A stretch of 43,936 nt of DNA. Source: Armatimonadota bacterium. Lineage in GTDB: Bacteria > Armatimonadota > UBA5829 > DTJY01. The translations under genes were made by a program, and so were the position numbers. The notes under the pieces are model-generated. The model worked only from the letters and a program-made list of their open reading frames with translations, searched no databases and was not told where the DNA came from. This document shows positions 1,336 to 39,471 of this stretch, piece by piece; the stretch's first letter is position 1; each line of letters opens with the position of its first letter. The stretch spans positions 1 to 43,936 of the forward strand of contig JANYKG010000171.1 in NCBI GenBank assembly GCA_025358205.1, in the 5' to 3' direction.

Positions 1336-2703
1336 ATGATAGAGAACCCGAGAACAACACGCAGACATTTCCTGAAGATCGCAGGGGCAGCGGCAACCGC
1401 CGCGATGGTTCTGCCGTTCCCCGAACTACTCGCCGCCGAGAAGAAGAAGCCGAACATCATTCTGATCCTTGCCGACGATTTGGGCTACGCTGATCTGGGA
1501 TGCCAGGGCTGCAAGGACGTGCCGACCCCAAACATTGACAGAATCGCCAAGAACGGCATGCGGTTTACCGACGCCCATGTGAGCTGTCCGGTATGCAGTC
1601 CGTCGCGCGCGGGAATCTTGACGGGCCGATATCAGGAGCGGTTTGGTCATGACAGCAACCCCGGTTCCGAGTTCGACAGGAAAGACTGGGGCCTGCCGCT
1701 CGATCAGAAGACGTTCGCCGAATACATGAAGGATATGGGATACGCTACGTGTGCGATCGGCAAGTGGCATCTCGGCGACAACGCGGCCCACCATCCGAAC
1801 AAGCGGGGCTTCGACGAGTTCTTCGGCTTCATCGGCGGTGCGCATCCATATCTTGACCCCACGGTCAACTCGTTCAACATGATCCAGCGGAATGGCAAGC
1901 CGGTTGATGAGAAGGACCACCTCAGCTATGCGTTCGGTCGCGAGGCTGTCTCATTCGTAGACAGGAACAAGGACAAGCCGTTCTTCCTCTACCTGGCGTT
2001 CAACGCGCCGCACCAGCCGCTGCAGCCCGCGATTCGGGATGCCGACGCGTTCCCGGAGATCAAGGACGAGAAGCGCCGCAACTTCGCCAAGCTGATGAAG
2101 TCCATGGATGTTTCGATAGGCGCGCTGCTCGACAAGGTGCGCGAGTCAGGCATCGAGGACAATACTCTCATCTTCTTCCTGTCGGACAACGGCGGGCCGA
2201 CACCGGGCAACACGTCGCGCAATGATCCGTACAAGGGCTACAAGACGCACGTCCACGAGGGCGGAACCCGCGTGCCGTTCATGGTTCAGTGGAAGAGCAA
2301 GCTTCCCGCCGGTAAGGTGTACAGCAAGCCGCTGATTGCGCTGGATATCCTGCCGACAGTGGTTACCGCGGCGGGCGGCAAGGTGGCGTCGAATGTGGAC
2401 GGCGTGGACCTGATGCCGTATCTGACCGGCAAGAAGTCCGGCGCTCCCCATGATGTGCTCTACTGGCGGTTCGACAAGCAACTGGCGATCCGAAAGGGCG
2501 ACTGGAAGATGTCGAAGCACGAGGAGAAGGGCGTCCGGCTGTACAATTTGGCCGATGATCCGAGCGAGAAGAACGACCTGTCTGCCAAGTACCCGGATAA
2601 AGTGAAGGAGCTTCAGGCGGAGTGGGACGAGTGGAACGCCAAGAACGCCAAGCCGATGTGTCCGGCCAAGATGGACGCGCCGTGGGTCAATAGCGAGTGG
2701 TGA
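1336..2703 (+). CDS. Tat-exported sulfatase (arylsulfatase A-like)
   Basis: 455 residues. A Tat signal (TTRRHFLK at 7-14, then an Ala-rich hydrophobic stretch) precedes a complete S1-type sulfatase. ADD at 46-48 supplies the N-terminal metal ligands. CSPSR at 87-91 is the sequence whose Cys is converted to formylglycine. GKWHLG, NAPHQPL and FLSDNGG supply the other active-site residues. The protein hydrolyses sulfate esters, most likely on a polysaccharide fragment in the periplasm. The formylglycine-generating enzyme it needs is not in this window. The product ends with the usual 'LYNLADDPSEKNDL' segment. The start has GAGG upstream. It is the first intact member of a four-sulfatase row, each separated by a repeat-filled spacer. 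Confidence 0.92.
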   Translation: MIENPRTTRRHFLKIAGAAATAAMVLPFPELLAAEKKKPNIILILADDLGYADLGCQGCKDVPTPNIDRIAKNGMRFTDAHVSCPVCSPSRAGILTGRYQERFGHDSNPGSEFDRKDWGLPLDQKTFAEYMKDMGYATCAIGKWHLGDNAAHHPNKRGFDEFFGFIGGAHPYLDPTVNSFNMIQRNGKPVDEKDHLSYAFGREAVSFVDRNKDKPFFLYLAFNAPHQPLQPAIRDADAFPEIKDEKRRNFAKLMKSMDVSIGALLDKVRESGIEDNTLIFFLSDNGGPTPGNTSRNDPYKGYKTHVHEGGTRVPFMVQWKSKLPAGKVYSKPLIALDILPTVVTAAGGKVASNVDGVDLMPYLTGKKSGAPHDVLYWRFDKQLAIRKGDWKMSKHEEKGVRLYNLADDPSEKNDLSAKYPDKVKELQAEWDEWNAKNAKPMCPAKMDAPWVNSEW

Positions 2704-2717
2704 TGGGACGTGTCGGA

Positions 2718-2766
2718 GTGTGGGAGACTTATTCTCCCATACCCCCATACGCCCATACTCCCACAC
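2718..2766 (+). repeat. Octamer array NCCCATAC x4 inside an inverted repeat
   Basis: Four tandem octamers, TCCCATAC, CCCCATAC, GCCCATAC and TCCCACAC, fill 2735-2766. The last unit pairs with GTGTGGGAG at 2718-2726, making a 9-base stem around the array. It occupies most of the spacer between two sulfatase genes and ends 16 bases before the next start codon, just ahead of its ribosome site. Confidence 0.7.
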
Positions 2767-2782
2767 ATAACGCGAGGAGACT

Positions 2783-4213
2783 ATGAACGACAACCGACCT
2801 AACATACTCTGGATATGCACCGACCAGCAGCGATTCGATACCATCGCCGGGCTGGGCAACAAGCACATCCGCACGCCGAATCTTGACAGGCTGATGACCG
2901 AGGGCGTGACATTCACGCACGCCTTCTGCCAGGCGCCGGTCTGCACGCCCAGCAGGGCGTCGTTCCTCACCGGGCGGTATCCTCGCACAAACGGCGCACG
3001 GCAGAACGGCCAGTGCATCCCGTCCGACGAGGCGCTCATCACCAGGATGCTCGCGGATGCCGGGTACGACTGCGGGCTTTCCGGCAAGCTCCACATCGCT
3101 CCGTGTCAGGGCGTGGTTGAGGAGCGCATTGATGACGGCTACCGGGTCTTCAACTGGAGCCATCATCCGCATCCCGACTGGCCGGAGAACGAGTACACTC
3201 AGTGGTTGGAGTCCAAAGGCCGCAAGTGGAAGGATGTATACGCCGGCGCCAAGGGCAGGCACGCCTTCCCGGGCGTCCCGGCGGAATTCCACCAGACTCC
3301 GTGGTGCTTCGACAGGGCGATTGACTTCATCAACGAGAAGCGCGAGGGGCCGTGGTGCATGAGTGTGAACGTCTTCGCGCCGCACCACCCATTCGATCCG
3401 CCCAGGGAGTATCTGGATCGCTATGACCCGGACACGCTTCCCGATCCCGACTACAAGCCGGGTGAACTGGACAACAAACCGGTCTTCCAGCAGGTAGACC
3501 ACGACGGCGCATACGGTGGGATGCTCCTGGGCTACAGCAAGATGACTCCTCGACAGCGCCGCGAGGTGACGGCGGCCTACTACGCCATGGTAGAGCAGAT
3601 TGACGACAACGTCGGGCGCATCCTCAAGATGCTGGATGACACCGGCCAGCGCGAGAACACCATCGTCATTTTCATGAGCGATCACGGTGAACTGCTCGGC
3701 GATCACGGCATGTACCTGAAAGGCCCGCACATGTACGATTGCTCGATCAGGGTTCCGCTGATTATCTCCTGGCCGGGTCACTTCAAGACCGGCCTTCGGT
3801 CAGACGCAATCGTCGAGCTGGTTGACCTGGCGCCGACGCTGCTGGATGCCTGCGGTATGGAGACGCCGGTCCGCGTGCAGGGCGAGTCGCTCTACGACAT
3901 CTGCACGGGCAAGGCCGATCCGCACGAACACAAAGAGTATGCCTACGCTGAGTACTACGTCGCCCAGCCGTTCCACCGGGCGCTGAAGGAAGTGCCGCTG
4001 GTGACGACGGTTCGTACCCGCACGGCCAAGATCAATGTTTACGCGGGACTGGAGCCGGGTGAGCTGTACGATCTGGTTGCCGACCCTGGTGAGCACGTGA
4101 ACCTGTGGGACAGCCCCGAACACCGCGATCTCAAGATGGAGATGATGAAACTGTGTTTCGACGCAAGTGTGCTGACGCAGGACCCGCTGCCCGTGCGCAC
4201 GGCGGACTGGTAG
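2783..4213 (+). CDS. Sulfatase without export signal
   Basis: 476 residues beginning directly with the catalytic fold (RPNILWICTDQQR at 5-17). CTPSR at 54-58 holds the formylglycine Cys. GKLH, APHHPFDPP and MSDHGELLGDHGMYLKG are the other active-site segments. An in-frame TAA at 2768-2770 lies just upstream and GCGAGGAG precedes the ATG, so no signal peptide can be added and the enzyme is predicted to be cytoplasmic. It is closely similar along its length to the next sulfatase, which does have a Tat signal. The pair looks like a tandem duplication. A cytoplasmic sulfatase would act on imported sulfated sugars. The exact substrate is unknown. Confidence 0.9.
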   Translation: MNDNRPNILWICTDQQRFDTIAGLGNKHIRTPNLDRLMTEGVTFTHAFCQAPVCTPSRASFLTGRYPRTNGARQNGQCIPSDEALITRMLADAGYDCGLSGKLHIAPCQGVVEERIDDGYRVFNWSHHPHPDWPENEYTQWLESKGRKWKDVYAGAKGRHAFPGVPAEFHQTPWCFDRAIDFINEKREGPWCMSVNVFAPHHPFDPPREYLDRYDPDTLPDPDYKPGELDNKPVFQQVDHDGAYGGMLLGYSKMTPRQRREVTAAYYAMVEQIDDNVGRILKMLDDTGQRENTIVIFMSDHGELLGDHGMYLKGPHMYDCSIRVPLIISWPGHFKTGLRSDAIVELVDLAPTLLDACGMETPVRVQGESLYDICTGKADPHEHKEYAYAEYYVAQPFHRALKEVPLVTTVRTRTAKINVYAGLEPGELYDLVADPGEHVNLWDSPEHRDLKMEMMKLCFDASVLTQDPLPVRTADW

Positions 4214-35782: not shown

Positions 35783-36874
35783 ATGACACACGGACCGCAA
35801 CTGCCCAAGACCATGAAAGCTGTCGTCATCTACGGCGCAGAAGACTACCGACTGGAAGAAGCGCCTGTTCCGCAGGCCGGGCCTGGCGAGGTGGTCATTA
35901 GGGTTGACCACGCCGGGGTCTGCGCTAGCGACGTGAAGTGCTACACCGGCGCGCACCACTTCTGGGGCGACGAGGTTACCCCCGGCGCGTGCGAGCCGCC
36001 GATCATCACCGGTCACGAGTTTGCGGGCGAGGTCGTGCAGCTCGGCGAAGGGGCAGGTGAGAAGCATGGGCTGAAGATCGGCGACATGGCGGTCTCGGAG
36101 CAGATCGTCCCGTGCGGTGAGTGCCGGTACTGCCAGACCGGACGCTACTGGCTGTGTCGGGAGTCTCACGTCTACGGATTCCGCCAGGCCGTCCCCGGCT
36201 CGTGGGCGGAGTACATGAAGTTCCCCGCGAAGGCCAGAAACTACAAGCTGCCCGAGGGGATGCCTCGCACTCATTCAGCAGTGGTGGAGCCTTTGGGATG
36301 CTCCATCCATGCGGTTCAGCGCGCGCAGATTCAGCTTGGCGATGTGGTTGTTATCGCCGGAGCAGGCGCGATTGGCCTCGGCATGGTCGGGGTCGCGAAA
36401 CTGCTGAATCCCTCGCTGCTGATCTCCATCGACCCTAAAGACTACCGGCTGGAGGTAGCGAAAACCCTTGGCGCCGACCTGACGCTGAACCCTGACAAAG
36501 AGGATGTGGTCGCCCGCGTGCAGGAGCTGACCGACGGCTACGGCTGCGATGTCTACATAGACGCGACCGGCTATGCGTCGTCCGTGTTGCCCGGCCTGCT
36601 GATGCTGAGAAAGCTTGGCACGTTTGTGGAGTACGGAGTCTTCCGCGAGCCGGCCACCATTGACTGGACGATCATCGGCGACAAGAAGGAACTGAGCGTC
36701 CTGGGCGCGCACCTGGCCCCGTACTGCTTCCCGCTGGCGATCGACTACATCACCCGCGGGCTGGTGGACGTTTCGCGGATCGTCACGCACGAACTGCCGC
36801 TTGAGCAGTACGAGAAGGCGCTCCACATGGTCCACGATGCCAAGGAATCCATCAAGGTGCTGCTGAAGCCGTAA
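35783..36874 (+). CDS. Zinc-dependent medium-chain alcohol/polyol dehydrogenase
   Basis: GGGAGG precedes the ATG at 35783; the frame is open further up but has no better start. 363 residues. GVCASDV carries the first catalytic-zinc Cys and GHEFAGEV the next His-Glu. PCGECRYCQTGRYWLC is the four-Cys structural zinc site. GAGAIGLGMVG is the dinucleotide-binding loop, followed by SIDPKDYRLEVAKTLGAD. An acidic residue after the second strand favours NAD(H). The family includes threonine, sorbitol and erythritol dehydrogenases. The substrate here is not readable, and oxidation of a sugar alcohol or sugar released by the surrounding enzymes is a fair guess. It is cytoplasmic. Confidence 0.88.
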   Translation: MTHGPQLPKTMKAVVIYGAEDYRLEEAPVPQAGPGEVVIRVDHAGVCASDVKCYTGAHHFWGDEVTPGACEPPIITGHEFAGEVVQLGEGAGEKHGLKIGDMAVSEQIVPCGECRYCQTGRYWLCRESHVYGFRQAVPGSWAEYMKFPAKARNYKLPEGMPRTHSAVVEPLGCSIHAVQRAQIQLGDVVVIAGAGAIGLGMVGVAKLLNPSLLISIDPKDYRLEVAKTLGADLTLNPDKEDVVARVQELTDGYGCDVYIDATGYASSVLPGLLMLRKLGTFVEYGVFREPATIDWTIIGDKKELSVLGAHLAPYCFPLAIDYITRGLVDVSRIVTHELPLEQYEKALHMVHDAKESIKVLLKP

Positions 36875-36880
36875 ATGAAG

Positions 36881-36946
36881 GTTTGCTTTACTTTTGCGCG
36901 CGTTTTTGCTATCATAATAAACGAAAATGGGGTTTTGCTTTATTAT
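36881..36946. repeat. TTT(GC/CG)TTTA elements and palindrome upstream of Fic
   Basis: GTTTGCTTTA occurs at 36881-36890. At 36914-36946, ATAATAAACGAAAA, loop TGGGG, TTTTGCTTTATTAT make a near-perfect stem in which CG faces GC in the middle. The same palindrome recurs after the gene at 38206-38242. These are probably operator or mobile-element ends, not simple terminators. Confidence 0.75.
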
Positions 36947-36985
36947 GGCCCATCAGATCTATCCCATAGTAAAATTTGGTGAACT

Positions 36986-37102
36986 ATGATAGATTAAGAA
37001 TCTACCCGCGCAGGGCAGTACGTTAGCCAACTAACAGGTGAACTGCAGTACAAAGCGTTCATCCCAAATCCGTTACCGCCTGAACCTCCGATCAACATAG
37101 AT
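36986..37102 (+). other. Natural N-terminus of the Fic gene, interrupted by a stop codon
   Basis: An ATG at 36986, preceded by GGTGA, is in frame with the Fic gene. It reads ATG ATA GAT TAA, so a stop stands at codon 4 (36995-36997). After it the frame encodes QYVSQLTGELQYKAFIPNPL and PPEPPINID, the normal beginning of Fic_N proteins. There is no other ATG, GTG or TTG in this stretch. The stop is either a nonsense mutation, a sequencing error, or a deliberate block, with re-initiation at 37103. Confidence 0.7.
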
Positions 37103-38170
37103 ATGGAGCTATGGCAACGCCTGTCTGATGCCGACCGCGCTCTCGGCCGTCTTGATGCGGTTGCAGAGTCACGCCCCAACCCTGATCTTTTTGTAGCGAT
37201 GTATGTCCGCAAGGAGTCGGTCCTAAGTTCTCAGATTGAAGGAACGCAGACCTCACTGGTTGACCTGCTCGAGTATGAGGCGAGCCATGCTAGTCGTGGA
37301 GTGCCGGCGGATGTTGGAGAAGTAGTAAACTATGTCCGGGCGCTCAACCATGGTATAGCTGGTCTGGCTGAGTTGCCGATATCGCAACGTCTCATACGTG
37401 GAGTTCACAGTAAGTTGCTCCAAGGAGTGAGGGGCGGGGAGCGCAAACCTGGTGAGTTCCGCACGTCACAGAACTGGATTGGTCCCGCTGGGAGTTCTCT
37501 ATCAAAGGCTACCTTTGTCCCACCTTCCGTGCCGGATATGGTTTCTGCGCTAAGCGAGTTGGAGAAGTTCATCCACAACGAATCTCCGATGCCCGCCTTG
37601 ATCAAGATTGGTCTTGTTCATTCTCAGTTCGAGACCATCCACCCGTTTCTCGACGGCAACGGGAGAATTGGCAGGCTGTTGATAACTCTTATGCTCTGCG
37701 AACAGGGCATACTGAGGCGTCCGCTGCTTTACCTGAGTTACTATTTCAAGCAGAACCGTCAGGAATACTACGACCGTTTGATGGCAGTTAGGCTCAAGGG
37801 TGACTGGGAAGGATGGCTGAAGTTCTTTCTGAGAGGTGTATACGAGGTATCTAGGCAGGCAACAGACACCGCTGGTCGAATCGTTGCTCTTCGCGAAGAT
37901 CATCGGCGCCTGATTCAGGATACTTTTGGCAGAGCGGCAAACAGCTTGAGGCTGCTGGATGTTCTGTATGATAGCCCGATCATTAGTGTTAAGATAGCTC
38001 ACAAAATCCTGGGGATCTCCATTCCGGCAGCTAACAACATTGTCGCGCAGTTTGTGGCGGCTGGACTGCTGACACAGACCGGTGCCGGGAAACGCGACAG
38101 GGTGTTCTCATACCAACCATATCTCGACATGTTTGCGGATGAGACGGACGTTCGCGTGGTGGAGACGTAG
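37103..38170 (+). CDS. Fic family AMP transferase with C-terminal winged helix
   Basis: 355 residues from the first available ATG; about 36 residues of the usual Fic_N start lie upstream behind a stop codon. SSQIEGTQ at 42-49 holds the class II inhibitory motif (S-x3-E-G) that blocks the active site. HPFLDGNGRIGR at 180-191 is the full Fic catalytic motif. The enzyme should transfer AMP from ATP to a target protein and be held back by its own inhibitory helix. The last 80 residues look like a winged helix (SVKIAHKILGISIPAANNIVAQFVAAGLL, in parts), which may bind the palindromes around the gene. By eye it is less GC-rich than its neighbours, so transfer is likely. Confidence 0.82.
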   Translation: MELWQRLSDADRALGRLDAVAESRPNPDLFVAMYVRKESVLSSQIEGTQTSLVDLLEYEASHASRGVPADVGEVVNYVRALNHGIAGLAELPISQRLIRGVHSKLLQGVRGGERKPGEFRTSQNWIGPAGSSLSKATFVPPSVPDMVSALSELEKFIHNESPMPALIKIGLVHSQFETIHPFLDGNGRIGRLLITLMLCEQGILRRPLLYLSYYFKQNRQEYYDRLMAVRLKGDWEGWLKFFLRGVYEVSRQATDTAGRIVALREDHRRLIQDTFGRAANSLRLLDVLYDSPIISVKIAHKILGISIPAANNIVAQFVAAGLLTQTGAGKRDRVFSYQPYLDMFADETDVRVVET

Positions 38171-38280
38171 TAAACGAATCTTAGTCAATGAAGGCTGAAC
38201 CGGCGAGATAATAAACGAAATGCCGTTTTGCTTTATTATCTCGCGCCAAATTCACGCGTTAGTTAAGTTTCGTTTACTAC
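38167..38280. repeat. Nested inverted repeats downstream of Fic
   Basis: GTAGTAAACGAA at 38167-38178, overlapping the stop codon, and its exact reverse complement at 38269-38280 enclose a second palindrome. That inner one is GAGATAATAAACGAAA at 38205-38220 (from G), loop TGCCG, TTTTGCTTTATTATCTC at 38226-38242. It copies the palindrome before the gene. Altogether seven TTT(GC or CG)TTTA words frame Fic. Confidence 0.78.
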
Positions 38281-38289
38281 GGCCAACTC

Positions 38290-39471
38290 CTACCGCACGA
38301 TTTCCCTATGCTCGGTGCTGACCAGTGCGCCGCGTGCGTCCGTCAGACTGATGAAGCACGCGATCGGCCGCGCCCCGGGCAGATCGGCTTCGATGGACGA
38401 ACCCCGAACCACCGCCGGTTTGGTGATCCACTTCCTGTCGCGCCAGTTTCCCGTGTCCGTCGTGTAGTTCAGCACCGCCAATTTCGCCCCAGCCTCGGAC
38501 TGAAAGCCGACCGATATCTTGCCGCCGACCAGCTTCATCTTGCCCAGCTTGGGGAGCGGCTGTCCGCACTTGAGGTGTTGGTCCATGAATATCCTGATCT
38601 CCTCAGGCGACGCGCCCTGCTCCTGACCGTGCGGCATCTCGATGTGGATGGAAAGCGTGCGGTTCTTGGCCAGGCGGTAGGTCTTCTGGTAGCTGTCGAG
38701 CCAGAAGCACGTGTCGTTCGTGCCGTTGATGAACAGCATGGGCATCTTCGCGTTGGAGAGGTAGCTGGATGGGTCGAAGTTGCTCACCCAGTTCGCTCTC
38801 TGCGCCGCGTCCATCGCGGTCAGCGTCTCCATCCATATGCTGCCCTCATGCAGGAATCCGCAGCCGTAGATCGGGGCCGCCGCCTTGATGCGGTCGTCCA
38901 GTCCGGCGGCGATGCACGTCACGAAACCGCCCCAGGAGACGCCCGTCAGGCCAATTCGCTTCGGGTCAACCTCCGGCATGGCGGAGAGCAACGACACCGC
39001 ACGGATGACGTCTGCCACCGCGTGGTAGGGCCATGCGTCCTTCGTATCCACCTTCGCGAAGATGTTTCCAATATCCGGTCCGCCGTCAGCCGACCGCGTC
39101 CCGTCTGGTCCGTTGCCAAAGTGGTCCATTGCAATGGCGACGTACCCGCGCTTGGCCCACATCTGCGCCCACTCCGGGAACGCGCGGCCGGCCCCACCGT
39201 GTACCAACACGATGGCGGGCGACGGCCCTTTCGCGTCGCTGGGGAACGCCAGATACGCGAACACCCTGGTCGGCTTGCTGTTGTAGGGTTCGCCTTCGTA
39301 GTAAATCGAGATCAGGTTGCCGTCTGTCTTGTCCACTTCGTACCTGATCGGCTGCCTCAGACGCGCCAAGTCCCACGGCCCGGTGGACTTTGATGCCTCA
39401 GCCGCACTTCCCACTACCATGATGCACATCATAATCAGCCACACTATCGCAAAGTTTATCGTATTCCCCAA
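38290..39471 (-). CDS. Secreted alpha/beta hydrolase (acetyl esterase-like)
   Basis: 393 residues starting at a TTG with GAGGCGG upstream and overlapping the end of the deacetylase gene by 16 bases; a later ATG would cut into the hydrophobic leader. Signal peptide to about AEA. The alpha/beta-hydrolase fold shows HGGAGRAFPEWAQMWAKRGY, GVSWGG with the nucleophile Ser, NGTNDTCF with the Asp, and MPHGQEQG with the His. This is like acetyl-xylan esterases and dienelactone hydrolases. A C-terminal beta module of about 90 residues follows. It probably removes acyl groups from a polysaccharide, helping the lyases and glycosidases. The coupling to the LmbE-type gene suggests one transcript. Confidence 0.78.
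   Translation of the reverse strand: MGNTINFAIVWLIMMCIMVVGSAAEASKSTGPWDLARLRQPIRYEVDKTDGNLISIYYEGEPYNSKPTRVFAYLAFPSDAKGPSPAIVLVHGGAGRAFPEWAQMWAKRGYVAIAMDHFGNGPDGTRSADGGPDIGNIFAKVDTKDAWPYHAVADVIRAVSLLSAMPEVDPKRIGLTGVSWGGFVTCIAAGLDDRIKAAAPIYGCGFLHEGSIWMETLTAMDAAQRANWVSNFDPSSYLSNAKMPMLFINGTNDTCFWLDSYQKTYRLAKNRTLSIHIEMPHGQEQGASPEEIRIFMDQHLKCGQPLPKLGKMKLVGGKISVGFQSEAGAKLAVLNYTTDTGNWRDRKWITKPAVVRGSSIEADLPGARPIACFISLTDARGALVSTEHREIVR

Follow-up and report, generated by a model that had tools for sequence, protein, structure and literature searches.

Predicted operator palindromes at both ends of a SoFic-like Fic gene in an Armatimonadota bacterium

The Fic gene and its product

The window, which here means the whole analysed stretch of 43,936 nucleotides, contains a SoFic-like class II Fic gene on the forward strand (36,986–38,170, stop codon TAG at 38,168–38,170). 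The encoded protein has Fic_N and Fic domains and a C-terminal winged helix. Across 47 sequences, the Fic motif HPFLDGNGRIGR (residues 215–226, pattern HPFx[D/E]GN[G/K]R) is nearly invariant and the N-terminal inhibitory motif SSQIEG of class II ([S/T]xxxE[G/N], residues 77–82) is invariant. The PADLOC SoFic profile PDLC03963 matches residues 17–380 (364 residues, E 1.6e-121). The NCBIfam SoFic equivalog NF046030 gives 165 bits, far below its cut-off of 550 bits. Judged by these profiles, the protein is a relative of SoFic and not an NF046030 equivalog.

The AlphaFold2 model of the Fic protein has a pLDDT of 87 and aligns with SoFic (Z 38.5 over 356 residues), CccR (Z 25.4), and CbFic2 (Z 25.3). 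Residues 296–375 alone align with the DNA-binding domains of PerR/Fur proteins (Z 10.4, rmsd 2.1 over 80 residues). The predicted fold resembles that of SoFic and includes a winged helix of the Fur/PerR type. The C-terminal winged helix proposed in an initial annotation of this DNA is thus found in the predicted model, with a pLDDT of about 90 and the PerR/Fur alignment in its favor. Its recognition helix region (38,015–38,059, forward strand; residues 340–354, ISIPAANNIVAQFVA; helix 342–354 in the model) carries the sequence ISIPAANN, which places it in the 'AAN' class.

The start codon at 36,986 is preceded by GGTGA and opens the series ATG ATA GAT TAA, which puts an in-frame TAA at codon 4 (36,995–36,997). 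The frame is otherwise open from 36,998 to 38,167, and the next in-frame ATG is at 37,103. This Fic copy may be damaged, translation may restart at 37,103, or the stop may be an assembly error. Because of the stop at codon 4, the full-length protein may not be made from the window copy. The predicted operators described below do not appear decayed.

Palindromes before and after the Fic gene

A scan of the window for TTTSSTTTA found exact words at 36,882(+), 36,918(−), 36,934(+), 38,212(−), 38,227(+), and 38,268(+). These six compare with a mean of 0.35 and a maximum of 2 in window shuffles and, together with one 8/9 copy, all lie within 36,882–38,276. Seven copies of TTT(GC/CG)TTTA had been listed initially; six are exact, the one at 38,171 is TAAACGAAT and matches at 8/9 only, and those given as 36,919 and 38,269 were off by one. 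The accompanying claim of matching stems on both sides of the gene, with CG facing GC in each, is confirmed by palindromes P2 before the gene and D after it.

P2 (36,913–36,947, centre 36,930) has the form CATAATAAACGAAAA-tgggg-TTTTGCTTTATTATG with 13 of 15 positions paired. It is flanked by two predicted operator palindromes that had been missed, making three upstream in total: P1 (GTAAATgaaggtttgcTTTAC, 36,871–36,891, centre 36,881) and P3 (CATAGTaaaatttggtgaACTATG, 36,965–36,988, centre 36,976.5), the final three bases of which form the start codon. The sole promoter called near the start of the Fic gene is a sigma-70-like TTTACT-17-TATCAT with an extended −10 TG (36,887–36,915, forward strand), which scored 9/12 in a consensus scan in which such matches generally occur at background rate. 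It lies between P1 and P2 and overlaps both, its −35 hexamer being overlapped by P1. RNA folding does not support the upstream palindrome as an RNA hairpin (z −0.74).

The downstream array fills the 120-bp gap between the Fic gene and a convergent gene. Its inner stem D (38,203–38,244, centre 38,223.5) reads GCGAGATAATAAACGAAA-6 nt-TTTGCTTTATTATCTCGC with 16 of 18 positions paired. D is enclosed by two outer arms with the half-site TAGTAAACGAA, one on the forward strand at 38,166–38,183 and one on the reverse strand at 38,264–38,281, 50 bp from the centre. The enclosing repeat, initially described as 12 perfect bases, exists but is longer (17 of 18 paired, 13 of them perfect), and the arms share exactly the centre of D. 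For this repeat 16 is observed, against a maximum of 11 in 300 shuffles of the region. A chance origin of the words is ruled out by the window and region shuffles. The asymmetry and the outer bases on both sides common to D and P2 point to D having diverged from a copy of P2 and not having arisen independently. No antisense promoter was called in the downstream array by the promoter scan. With P3 at the start codon and the left outer arm including the stop codon, the Fic gene is bounded by half-sites.

Palindromes in the genome, the phylum, and related Fic loci

The initial annotation had held that a palindrome scattered over the genome away from Fic genes would speak against its proposal. The TARTAAASSAAA palindromes occur at this locus only in the 4.08-Mb genome, and the strict P2 palindrome at this locus only among 291 genomes of the same phylum. 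Both searches rule out a genome-wide repeat. The 12-mer has one other match in the genome (contig C176), just before a pseudopilin gene; this is about the background of a reversed control, and the match lacks a palindrome and is taken as chance.

Relatives of the Fic gene were compared at 80 loci from genome contigs and, within the same phylum, at about 90 others. Among about 150 relatives, palindromes ahead of the gene were often seen, with words specific to each locus and frequently at a pitch of 35–36 or 45–46 bp. In 44 of 103 relatives, drawn from many phyla, an inverted repeat scoring at least 10 stands upstream of the gene, compared with 4 inside genes and 0–2 in shuffles; a palindrome of this strength is missing in more than half of the relatives. 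The words vary by locus, as in CTTTAATATGG, CTTATTATAG, TTATTTTA, and TAATTAAA. Neighboring palindrome pairs favor two pitches, 34.5–37.5 bp (12 of 53 pairs, 3e-8) and 44.5–46.5 bp (10 of 53, 8e-5), and the window pitch of 46.5–50 bp is just outside both. Extra half-sites in relatives cluster 37–39 and 52–54 bp from the main centre.

In the closest relative (L013, 64%), the palindrome TAATAAATAAA...TTTTGTTTATTA lies at −57 from the start, compared with −56 in the window. A distant SoFic-like group (26–37% identity) has upstream palindromes at 11 of 20 loci where 1.7 are expected, with CGACATGT-like words in several cases. One member of this group, L164 (G000:C116:10600-14500), is a second, diverged Fic of the window genome with 31% identity. 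Its upstream palindrome, TCGACATGTT-gacgg-AACATGTCGA with a 5-nt spacer, is unlike that of the window Fic.

Strong upstream palindromes (score 17–22) were also seen at L100, L180 (= L117), and L153. At L102, from the same class of bacteria, an inverted repeat with arms of about 38 nt (GAGAAAACGCACAAA...) precedes the Fic gene. The framing of Fic at L189 and L190 was judged to be chance.

The predicted operator word and the recognition helix

When loci were sorted by recognition helix, many with an AAN helix carried CCATATTAAAGGC-like half-sites. The word CATATTAAAG (at least 9/10) stands before 16 of 25 AAN loci and 15 of 126 others (Fisher 1e-7, uncorrected for kinship). Comparison of each AAN locus with its closest non-AAN relative gave 19 higher and 3 lower (p 0.0005, an optimistic value as neighbors were reused). 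A weight matrix was built from 17 foreign AAN loci with the window excluded and run over the 44-kb window (about 88,000 positions). The right half-site of P2 ranked first, and 7 of the 20 best matches fell in the two arrays of the window Fic gene. No other result argues as strongly as this matrix search that the words would be read by the Fic protein itself.

Over all loci, similarity of the word correlates weakly with that of the winged helix once similarity of the Fic domain is accounted for (partial correlation 0.095, p 0.016), and the partial Mantel test for the recognition helix alone is nil. The word–helix link is therefore carried by the AAN class rather than by a general code, and a covariation of the two that would hold across all classes was rejected.

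Probable self-regulation and its alternatives

The palindromes are probably operators of the SoFic-like class II Fic protein itself, which would bind them via its winged helix and keep its own expression low. Such self-regulation, one of two explanations offered initially, is well supported by upstream arrays in many relatives, the word–helix class link, the sigma-70-like promoter inside the array, and the precedent of CccR. In the model that we infer, the C-terminal winged helix of the Fic AMPylase would bind the palindromes over its own promoter and start codon and hold a potentially toxic defence enzyme at a low level. Since the palindromes are in tandem at a fixed pitch, dimers may bridge neighboring sites. 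A bolder version, which we consider rather unlikely, makes Fic both its own repressor and a sensor. Its ATP/AMPylation state or a phage-triggered change at the C-terminus would decide between bound protein and active toxin, so that a single protein would act as toxin, antitoxin, and regulator at once, and the downstream array would close a loop around the gene.

That the palindromes are instead sites of another, host regulator is very improbable: they occupy one locus in the genome, the word follows Fic's own helix class across phyla, and nothing was found in favor of such a regulator. Hardly more credible is the other initial explanation, that the two arrays are ends of a mobile Fic cassette recognized in transposition or recombination. 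The gene is indeed patchy, with a close homologue in none of four genomes of the same family; three of these keep the neighboring dehydrogenase gene (80–85% identical) with other genes beside it, and the fourth offers nothing closer than a 31% match. Fic genes of the family elsewhere are flanked by duplicated neighbor DNA, a 30-nt direct repeat at L200 and gene ends at L058, L014, and L201, but those repeats are host DNA and not operators. Palindromes in most relatives are upstream only, at promoter distance, and the words vary between loci, which is unexpected for the ends of one element. At the window locus, the four nearest genes examined are not recombinases, neither a transposase nor a target duplication was seen, and the Fic unit is not bracketed by a perfect direct repeat. 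Comparison with the four genomes of the family revealed no empty site. Patchy inheritance is thus shown, but cassette ends are not. Patchiness within the family, together with close relatives spread over many phyla, suggests horizontal transfer of the Fic gene.

The framing repeats at L200, L201, L058, and L014 were not counted as operators. They are possible insertion footprints.

The downstream array

Predicted operator words recur after the gene in the same-phylum loci L101, L104, L105, L035 (= L150), L151, and L162, and possibly L213. With the window included, downstream copies occur at about 8 of 86 loci in the phylum and at 1 of 71 other loci (L085, Clostridiales). The downstream array is a minority trait, and any function of it is putative. 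The next gene is convergent in L104, L105, L162, and the window, so the downstream copies at these loci do not serve as its promoter. In L105, as in the window, the stop codon lies inside a half-site. Near-identical downstream copies span 47 nt in L101 and 62 nt in L085. The latter (1420–1500) lies after Fic and before a HEC-01A/HEC-01B defence pair (1587–3451), and this HEC-01-type two-gene system is possibly a second target of Fic.

The array most likely binds the same Fic protein, either as a second anchor of a loop or as a roadblock against read-through; looping between the arrays is possible. Two other accounts are each doubtful to a similar degree. The array may mainly be a 3′ RNA hairpin or a terminator serving both of the convergent genes, with its operator sequence incidental. 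It occupies the gap between these genes, and the RNA of 38,160–38,290 folds to −47.5 kcal/mol (z −5.9; other strand z −5.2). However, the array has no U-tract and no terminator was called in it. The downstream words of L104 and L105 are those of their own upstream operators at a similar spacing of 36–37 bp (by eye), and the half-sites score with the helix class of the Fic protein. Alternatively, the downstream copy may be a functionless by-product of duplication, as the copies in L101 and L085 resemble recent duplications and so few same-phylum loci have one. This accords poorly with the exactly concentric and highly paired outer and inner arms of the window and with the recurrence of the trait in several lineages, mostly beside convergent neighbors. 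A further point against it is that the sequence after the array in the window, and after the copies in four relatives, showed no trace of a second Fic gene.

Comparison with known systems

The nearest precedent is CccR of Yersinia pseudotuberculosis, which represses itself via AGATAATCAT-N26-ATGATAATCT, as established by footprint and EMSA (PMC9755527). CccR (PDB 7XUX) is a class II Fic protein with a C-terminal winged helix, as predicted for the window Fic, and has an inverted-repeat operator over its own promoter, as the window appears to have from its sequence. The CccR half-site centres are 36 bp apart (10 + 26, computed from PMC9755527), the commonest palindrome pitch in the relatives. 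Its word AGATAATCAT differs from that of the window, and its half-site is a single 10-mer whereas the window unit is itself palindromic. For CccR no downstream array is reported in the text consulted (PMC9755527), and the protein is secreted by a T6SS.

SoFic (PDB 3EQX, 3ZCN; PMC12249575) shares with the window Fic the PADLOC match, the fold, SSQIEG, and HPFLDGNGRIGR, at about 25% identity. The 120-bp downstream gap of the window leaves no room for an AS1-like small gene, and no operator has been described for SoFic. The terms HTH and DNA-binding are absent from the 2025 Sofic anti-phage study, which suggests that leakiness of expression is enough for toxicity (PMC12249575). A 2023 paper noted that SoFic had not been demonstrated to bind DNA (PMC10628234). 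In CbFic2 of Coxiella burnetii (PDB 8CIL), another class II Fic protein, the winged helix binds DNA, tested with random DNA only, and no operator is known (PMC10628234). A search of largely non-subscription literature yielded no account of operator arrays for the SoFic family, so their novelty is provisional.

The predicted operators bear on the means by which SoFic-type defence proteins stay quiet. Across many phyla Fic genes carry dedicated predicted operators, whose word is predictable from the recognition helix for one class. This suggests that self-control sites are common in the SoFic-like Fic family, a kind linked to phage defence. The autoregulated toxin–antitoxin operons Phd-Doc and AbiE likewise have tandem inverted repeats over the toxin promoter that are read by the cognate regulator. 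There the antitoxin binds, whereas in the window the Fic protein itself carries the predicted DNA-binding domain. For a single gene to carry operators at both of its ends, as predicted here, is unusual.
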